Positions 1-2,778 of a stretch of 21,283 nt of DNA are shown one piece after another (the stretch's first letter is position 1; the number at the start of each line of letters is the position of its first letter). The notes under the pieces are model-generated. The model had not been told where the DNA came from and did no database searches. It saw only the letters and a program-made list of their open reading frames with translations. This stretch comes from a virus. The stretch is taken from the IMG/VR virus record IMGVR_UViG_3300028008_000131, positions 1-21,283 of that record; one strand, given 5' to 3'. The position numbers and the translations under genes are program-made.

Positions 1-156
1 GTTCAATTCAAAGTCTGTTAACCTGCTAAGTTCTTTTAAAGTTCTTTTGTATGAAGCTTTGCGTTCTGCACGTAGTTTCATTGATCTACGTAAGTCTCTA
101 AATCCTTCAATTGCATCTTGTATCCAACTTGACGCTTCTATTACATAATGTGTCAT
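1..156 (-). CDS. DUF1127-like small protein (3' end off the window)
   Basis: This reading frame starts at ATG 156 and runs off the left edge after 52 codons without a stop. The start overlaps the stop of the preceding minus-strand gene (TAATG), so the two are probably translationally coupled. After a short hydrophobic/acidic start, residues about 23-52 are Arg/Lys-rich and end in KRTLKELSRLTDFELN. This closely matches the core of the DUF1127 family (usual pattern R.TL.EL..L.D.EL.DIG). The DIG residues would lie just outside the window. DUF1127 proteins are short basic proteins common in Alphaproteobacteria; one of them, CcaF1 of Rhodobacter sphaeroides, binds RNA and acts in stress and RNA regulation. 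A role in host RNA regulation is inference. The family call rests on a motif recognised by eye. Confidence 0.72.
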   Translation of the reverse strand, partial: MTHYVIEASSWIQDAIEGFRDLRRSMKLRAERKASYKRTLKELSRLTDFELN

Positions 157-335: not shown

Positions 336-380
336 TTCTTTCTCCTAGTTAAGTTGTAGATGCTTTAGGTGCATGATACC

Positions 381-439
381 CCTAGTCTTTTCTAGGCGTC
401 AGTGGTCTTTTCCACCGTCAGTAGTCTTTGCTACCGTCA
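381..439 (-). ncRNA. Three tandem hairpins with covarying stems in the leader of the leftward operon
   Basis: Read on the minus strand, three units follow one another, each made of the linker TGACG and a small stem-loop: GTAG-CAAAGA-CTAC (434-421), GTGG-AAAAGA-CCAC (415-402) and CCTAG-AAAAGA-CTAGG (396-381). The hexaloop is nearly constant (A/C AAAGA). The stem bases differ in all three while pairing is kept, which is direct covariation inside one locus. Repeat period is 19-21 nt. The array lies about 45 nt upstream of the 59-aa gene start and downstream of both leftward promoters, so it would be transcribed as part of the leader. It could be a regulatory leader, a set of small RNAs, or protein-binding DNA sites. 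No known RNA family is recognised. Confidence 0.65.
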
Positions 440-529
440 ATCACTTGTAACGGATGGATAATCCGCATTGTCTATCCAATGTGTCTATGTGTGTTGTCAA
501 AACCACCATTGCAGTTGCTTTAACGCTTG

Positions 530-537
530 TATTTATA
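530..537 (-). promoter_or_regulatory. Late promoter for the leftward operon
   Basis: On the minus strand this reads TATAAATA, an exact match to the T4 late-promoter box. Transcription would start near 524, giving a leader of about 190 nt that includes the triple hairpin. Confidence 0.7.
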
Positions 538-1818: not shown

Positions 1819-2778
1819 TTGAAAATGAAGATTATTACAGGAAATGCTAATCCTCAATTAGCACAAGAAATTGCTGAGCATTGCTTCGCAACACTTGTTC
1901 CTGCACAAGTTTCTACGTTCGCTGACGGAGAATCAAGTGTAGAATTTTTAGAAAATATACGTGGCGAAGATGTTTTTATTGTACAGAGTACAGCAACTCC
2001 TGTTAATGATAGTTTGATGGAACTGTTGATTATGATTGATGCGGCAAGACGTTCAAGTGCAAGTAGAATTACAGCAGTGATTCCTTACTTTGGTTATGCT
2101 AGACAAGATCGTAAGAGTGCAAGTCGTACTCCTATCACAGCAAAACTAGTTGCCAACTTGTTAGTAACAGCAGGCGCAGACAGGATCCTTACAATGGATC
2201 TACACGCAGGACAGATACAGGGTTTCTTTGATATTCCAGTTGACGATTTAACAAGCCGTGTAGTGTTTGCTAAAGATATAAAACGTTCAATTGGTTGGAG
2301 AGATGAACCAGACGTAGATCAAGCCAAGACTGTTTTTGTATCACCAGACGCAGGTGGCGCAGTTCGTGCTAGAAAGTTTGCAGATATGTTCAATGGTGAC
2401 ATTGCTATTGTTGATAAGATGCGTCCTGAAGCAGGCAAGTCAGAAGTAATGAACTTGATTGGAGATGTTAAAGGCAAACATGCTATACTAGTAGATGACA
2501 TTATTGACTCAGGTGGTACACTTGTCAAAGCCGCTCAAGCAATTATGGACGCAGGTGCATTGAGTGTTAGAGCATATATCACACATGGTGTATTGTCAGG
2601 CGAAGCATGTCAAAAAGTTGAGAAGTCAGTGCTAGACGAATTGGTAGTAACAGATTCAATTGCTAACCGTTGTCCTAAGAACTGTAAGAAAACAAGACAA
2701 GTAAGTGTAAGTCAACTGTTTGGTGAAGCGATGAGACGAGTAACTAACGAAGAGTCAGTAAGTAGTTTGTTTATATGA
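1819..2778 (+). CDS. prs: Ribose-phosphate pyrophosphokinase (PRPP synthase)
   Basis: The enzyme makes PRPP from ribose 5-phosphate and ATP, feeding nucleotide and NAD synthesis in the cytoplasm. At 319 aa it is full length (bacterial Prs about 315). Canonical elements are all present: FADGESSVEF near residue 34, the ATP-contacting RQDRK (95-99), DLHAGQIQGFF (127-137), SPDAGGAVRARKFAD (175-189), and the PRPP loop VDDIIDSGGT (225-234). TTG 1819 is taken as the start because the Shine-Dalgarno AGAAGGG (1804-1810) lies 8 nt before it; ATG 1825 would be 14 nt away. The stop overlaps the ugd-like start (ATGA), so the two genes are coupled. Phage Prs-fold enzymes can also belong to NAD-restoring pathways, but the motifs here look like ordinary Prs. 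Confidence 0.93.
   Translation: MKMKIITGNANPQLAQEIAEHCFATLVPAQVSTFADGESSVEFLENIRGEDVFIVQSTATPVNDSLMELLIMIDAARRSSASRITAVIPYFGYARQDRKSASRTPITAKLVANLLVTAGADRILTMDLHAGQIQGFFDIPVDDLTSRVVFAKDIKRSIGWRDEPDVDQAKTVFVSPDAGGAVRARKFADMFNGDIAIVDKMRPEAGKSEVMNLIGDVKGKHAILVDDIIDSGGTLVKAAQAIMDAGALSVRAYITHGVLSGEACQKVEKSVLDELVVTDSIANRCPKNCKKTRQVSVSQLFGEAMRRVTNEESVSSLFI

Follow-up and report, generated by a model that had tools for sequence, protein, structure and literature searches.

What is a tandem array of three short hairpins doing in the genome of a phage? The question is raised by a stretch of viral DNA of 21,283 nucleotides (IMG/VR record IMGVR_UViG_3300028008_000131, positions 1 to 21,283; hereafter the window), in which an initial annotation had pointed to three consecutive stem-loops with changing stems. 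The hairpins are present on the minus strand, at positions 381-436, with the sequences and unit boundaries described there: M3a, CGGTAG-CAAAGA-CTACTG (419-436, unit 1 of the annotation), M3b, CGGTGG-AAAAGA-CCACTG (400-417, unit 2), separated from M3a by a one-nucleotide linker at 418, and M4, CCTAG-AAAAGA-CTAGG (381-396, unit 3). The three stems are unlike one another and the NAAAGA hexaloops and UGACG linkers are constant; by drawing in linker bases, the stems of M3a and M3b reach six pairs. TRF detects the repeat at 383-439 (period 19, 2.9 copies). The predicted minus-strand fold of the 66-nt array has an energy of -23.3 kcal/mol (z = -5.8), with 0/200 shuffles as good, and the plus-strand fold is weaker (-15.6, z = -4.1). 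The array hairpins were found again in related phages on other stems, and this recurrence with different stems places the array beyond chance.

On the minus strand the array precedes a gene encoding a 59-aa protein, TEY (156-335, ATG at 335; AKTEYGxDWxxAYxxM), the first gene of an operon, for which no Pfam or PHROG family was found. A search with the single TEY sequence led to 34 viral loci and alignment A1 (24 members) to 251 confirmed stretches, and 86 distinct leaders were extracted 5' of TEY genes. A covariance model (R1), built from seven seeds, recognises the leader in each of the 67 sources examined, among them the window (69 bits). Relatives with the same flanking genes in which pairing was lost had been named as the finding that would speak against a selected fold, and the opposite was seen. 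The designation as a phage leader also held. In viral relatives the leader is linked to a late-type promoter and to the operon. The array did not stand as a complete unit: its three hairpins are real, but they are variable inserts within a larger modular leader of about 195 nt, which extends from a T4-type late promoter to the Shine-Dalgarno (SD) sequence of TEY and comprises, in this order, the promoter, a 5' hairpin or pseudoknot, M1, M2, an A-rich junction, zero to three M3 hairpins, M4, M5 and the SD.

The putative start of the leader is marked by the promoter core TATAAATA (530-537, minus strand), which matches the T4-type late promoter consensus, the spacing from this core (537-530) to the SD sequence TAGGAG (342-347, minus strand) being 182 nt. 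In 78 of the 86 relatives a TAAATA box lies 108-228 nt 5' of the start codon, against a background of 0.28 per kb per strand. The term "T4-type" denotes the promoter sequence and not phage taxonomy, since canonical T4 gp23 was identified by Pfam in only one of 12 large records. Downstream of the promoter, a 5'-terminal hairpin is predicted at 496-524 (minus strand). Hairpins of differing sequence occupy this place in 25/25 comparable type B leaders (mean z -3.0), and type A relatives have in its place an H-type pseudoknot (GAGC-GACCUCA-GCUC-AGAAAAAA-UGAGUGG), 96.9% of whose cells are paired, with 11 double-change cells versus 3.0 in shuffled controls. These structures bear on the strongest rival to a protein-binding leader, namely mRNA protection, in which a late mRNA present in large amounts would be shielded by these 5' structures and by the string of hairpins from RNases and from 5'-dependent decay, without any dedicated partner. 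A hairpin or pseudoknot right after the expected start site is equally expected on every leader under this explanation, and the conserved late promoter also suits it. However, neither a constant loop, nor UGACG linkers, nor a near-invariant M5 20-mer would be required for protection, and within each phage the leader is confined to one operon (12 phage records of 68-307 kb, each with a single copy); we regard this explanation as possible but unlikely.

The 5' structure is followed on the minus strand by M1 (466-481; CATTG-GATAGA-CAATG), which is 99.1% paired, with changes on both sides in 4/4 model pairs and 26 distinct arm/loop combinations, by M2 (451-465; CGGAT-TATCC-ATCCG; 97.3% paired, double changes in 5/5 pairs) and by the A-rich junction J23 (TTACAAGTGATTGA, 437-450), which is conserved in relatives. 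The AUC of the M2 loop may pair with a GAU within J23. The two segments are complementary in 24 of the 29 loop classes, swapped partners giving an expectation of 15.5. This result was matched by 39 of 20,000 shuffles by loop class, and together the segments probably form a second pseudoknot. M1, M3 and M4 have in common an NANAGA hexaloop with a closing G-C pair, and the sequence of their stems is free; M1 and M3 were selected by the loop motif, so that loop constancy is an unbiased observation for M4 only, which was located by position. M4 presents about a dozen different stems on the same loop type, and a second form with a GAAGU loop (type C) is also common. The last hairpin, M5 (360-374, minus strand; ATGC-ACCTAAA-GCAT), is a variant of the common TTGCTT-TCCTC-AAGCA, and a 20-mer comprising most of the common form occurs in at least 120 viral stretches. 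Other variants are AUGCU-AACCAUAA-AGCAU and UGAU-UCCUAAA-AUCA, and CC is kept in the loops of all variants seen. The idea that the M5 loop is complementary to RNase P RNA or 16S was abandoned, as these variants disrupt the match.

Among 62 distinct leaders aligned with the covariance model, 97.9% of 1278 base-pair cells form, compared with 79.3% in shuffled and 31-52% in slid controls, and double changes occur at 19 of 24 pairs (in 210 cells, versus 40 in shuffled controls). In these leaders, helix 3 (M3) is 95.9% paired, with double changes in 4/6 pairs, and M4 is 98.8% paired, with double changes in 4/4 model pairs. Since such an alignment is fitted to the structure, pairing was retested with loop position as the sole anchor; it was then 92-100% at the four inner pairs. 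For M4, with 19 distinct arm/loop combinations, the figure was 94-100%, and shuffling lowered it to about 50% at the two most variable of these pairs. This covariation, which exceeds both shuffled and slid controls, upholds the proposal of the initial annotation that the fold is under selection. The annotation had left open whether RNA or DNA was selected, and the asymmetry between G-U cells (54) and A-C cells (7) indicates that selection acts on the minus-strand RNA; by the same asymmetry, a plus-strand structure or a DNA cruciform is disfavoured. Judged from these sequence comparisons, the leader fold almost certainly does a job.

What kind of job is suggested by the way in which the leader varies. 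The loop type is constant and the stems are variable, whether hairpins of a single leader or different leaders are compared, and phages differ in how many tandem units they have (zero to three M3 hairpins per leader). One relative (L227) carries two identical M3 units, a tandem duplication of 19 nt, and other relatives have none or one. Hairpins with A-rich loops number one to four per complete leader and are gained or lost as whole units, a pattern more easily reconciled with multivalent binding than with a fixed ligand pocket. A riboswitch, or a switch sequestering the SD, that responds to a small molecule is most improbable: M2 with the A-rich junction does resemble a small H-type pseudoknot, but a unit number of one to four is unlike an aptamer, and the predicted pairing of M5 with the SD amounts to only 8%. 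SD sequestration by M5 is not supported, because predicted SD accessibility is the same in the leaders (0.39) as in other phage genes (0.40). Very unlikely, too, is antitermination of the put type, in which nascent hairpins would modify RNA polymerase and allow read-through of the operon. The hairpins do lie near the transcript start, and the one-nucleotide spacing of two of them (419-436 and 400-417) is reminiscent of HK022 put, but hairpin number and stems vary freely and the operon is short, no conserved terminator having been identified between leader and genes (the relatives were not systematically searched).

The multivalent binding that we favour directs attention to the genes downstream. 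The second gene of the operon (1-156, minus strand), of DUF1127 type, starts in the TEY stop codon (TAATG) with a one-base overlap and is cut by the end of the window; the truncated protein matches Pfam DUF1127 below the cut-off (E = 0.002), and a full-length relative at the same place reaches E = 7e-11. The operon order is TEY, DUF1127 or DUF3563, and RARAA (GESAGRARAAxEL..EAKxLM), and the proteins are basic (median pI 9.2-9.6). A DUF1127 gene is present in most operons, usually second or third and sometimes first; part of the leader-bearing operons are without it and have DUF3563 in its place, and RARAA is the most constant member. At eight loci that lack TEY, the leader is directly followed by DUF1127, DUF3563 or RARAA. 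The leader thus persists with different first genes and is a property of the operon as a whole rather than of any single protein. A separate promoter-like box (654-660) goes with the plus-strand gene at 756, which places the array between divergent transcripts and assigns it to the minus-strand one. Structure models of TEY and RARAA are low-confidence helices (pLDDT 70), that of TEY a single helix with no PDB match. Otherwise unrelated operon proteins (L053, L135, L033, L204, L227 and others) have C-terminal tails in common, NxNL[KR]GWV being found in TEY, DUF1127 and DUF3563 proteins and YEPGDHYxxGKxVAxWKGKAHA in RARAA and DUF1127 proteins, as if these proteins were tagged for a common fate. 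Many RARAA proteins contain YCxFCE or TCxxC near the N-terminus, possibly a metal-binding motif. A gene for a copper protein of plastocyanin/pseudoazurin type lies just behind the operon in L165 (6666-7097; Pfam E 6e-17), L210 (5808-6242) and L232 (6023-6442).

The company of DUF1127 genes makes it conceivable that the leader corresponds, in phages, to the DUF1127-CcsR (CIN1) loci and acts as a sponge or as a precursor cut into stem-loop sRNAs, with the CC-containing M5 loop as an anti-SD-like seed. The loops of CcsR, or cuckoo, RNAs carry a CCUCCUCC-type motif; in the phage leaders the M1-M4 loops are purine-rich (NANAGA) and CC occurs in M5 only (UCCUC, ACCUAAA or similar), where it is retained in the variants seen. 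The association with DUF1127 genes is shared with the bacterial loci, in which such genes are accompanied by tandem stem-loop RNAs (PMC10253847). Against this possibility, the phage RNA lies upstream of the ORF and is tightly linked to it, has no Rfam match, and contains no conserved terminator or processing site that we could identify; we consider it improbable.

The leader is widely distributed. It was reached in three ways, by protein, by RNA pattern and by the third operon gene. With RARAA as an independent anchor, it was found on the operon strand in about 46 of 80 loci (E <= 0.01); about 30 of the 80 are without an R1-recognised leader, part of them having a diverged one (L274 type, before DUF1127) and others unrelated upstream regions. 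The family is well supported and extends to far more than a hundred contigs of uncultured phages, most of them marine. Rfam 15 gave no match at gathering threshold over the leader of the window and nine relatives, a lax search giving chance hits far below gathering, which agrees with the earlier statement that no described RNA family has this pattern. Cultured phages yielded no match by DNA or by protein. In 190 alphaproteobacterial genomes there was no convincing match to the leader, the one at E 0.006 being GC-rich and devoid of leader features; RARAA was not detected in 190 host genomes either, a result of little weight as the search had no positive control. TEY homologues occur without a leader in two or three of 289 genomes, from the class of Roseibium (Alphaproteobacteria). 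Two of these genomes, of about 1.4 Mb, carry them at 1471-1814 (L254) and 1468-1659 (L255), the former overlapping a DUF3563-like gene, an arrangement also seen in some of the phage operons. A host origin of the leader RNA was rejected on the grounds of these leaderless TEY genes and of the lack of a convincing match in the 190 alphaproteobacterial genomes. Among matches in genome contigs, the real leaders (L157/L164, L161) are on phage-like contigs in MAGs and the other six are without a leader; the former were binned into Neomarinimicrobiota and Flavobacteriales, probably by contamination. In these searches no leader turned up on a bacterial chromosome. A permuted tmRNA of alphaproteobacterial type (RF01849, 82-91 bits) is encoded about 4 kb downstream of the leader in L030 (7902-8159) and L034 (7828-8099), which points to alphaproteobacterial hosts. 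Another of the phage contigs, L019, contains a glutamine riboswitch (RF01739, 54.6 bits; 2382-2434, minus strand).

Our preferred reading, held tentatively and with somewhat less than even confidence, is that the leader serves as a multi-site protein-binding platform controlling the operon. The operon would be transcribed late, from the T4-type promoter, and its leader would form a hairpin or pseudoknot at the 5' end and, behind it, a row of short hairpins. One RNA-binding protein, of phage or host, would recognise the repeated A-rich loops (NANAGA, G-C closed), and their occupancy would determine how well the operon mRNA is translated or how stable it is, in the manner of gp32 and gp43 of T4, which autoregulate via a leader pseudoknot or hairpin (PMC535899, PMC3014915). 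We infer protein binding, the identity of the protein and the direction of control, multivalent binding being suggested by this analogy and by the DUF1127 protein CcaF1, an RNA-binding protein whose gene shares a transcript with CcsR1-4 (PMC10253847). If the regulation is autogenous, the protein to consider first would be a basic one from the operon itself, of DUF1127 type or RARAA. Since some of the operons lack DUF1127, it cannot serve as the partner throughout, and DUF1127 proteins may also act through protein contacts (PMC12501420). A more specific proposal, which we consider speculative and rather doubtful, is that of a new, modular regulatory RNA family, whose interchangeable hairpins with a single loop signature vary in number by whole units and are read late in infection by a small phage protein of DUF1127/RARAA type; the system would either derive from the DUF1127 systems of hosts or have arisen in parallel to them. 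The bacterial relatives of the operon families DUF1127 and DUF3563 are debated as RNA-binding or kinase-binding regulators, and the leader provides a concrete candidate RNA ligand for DUF1127-type proteins. Moreover, arrays of one to four hairpins constitute a natural series for the analysis of multivalent RNA recognition.

On sequence grounds, the leader is a new RNA family among structured phage mRNA leaders, unusual for its unit-wise variable array. In Sinorhizobium meliloti (S. meliloti), a long regulatory leader likewise precedes a DUF1127 gene (PMC12218461), but attenuation there depends on a translated uORF, whereas in the phages uORF attenuation was rejected, the uORF not being conserved and SD-preceded uORFs occurring in only 22/62 leaders. 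The ccaF1-CcsR1-4 locus (CIN1, cuckoo RNAs) of Alphaproteobacteria resembles the phage operon in that a DUF1127 gene is cotranscribed with tandem sRNAs (PMC10253847); its RNAs, however, lie downstream and are processed sRNAs, whereas the phage RNA lies upstream and is without an Rfam match. The gene 32 operator of T4 and RB69 is also a phage mRNA leader, with a 5' pseudoknot that nucleates binding of the autogenous repressor (PMC535899); at the 5' end, type A relatives carry a predicted pseudoknot and the window a predicted hairpin. In that operator, unstructured UUAAA repeats extend from the pseudoknot to the SD of an SSB gene, whereas here hairpins fill the leader and TEY and other tiny proteins are encoded downstream. 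Finally, the gene 43 operator of T4 and RB69 is, like the units described here, a short hairpin with a conserved loop 5' of the start codon, bound in that case by the gene product (PMC3014915), but it is a single hairpin with a UAAC loop before a different gene, whereas the leader described here presents an array.
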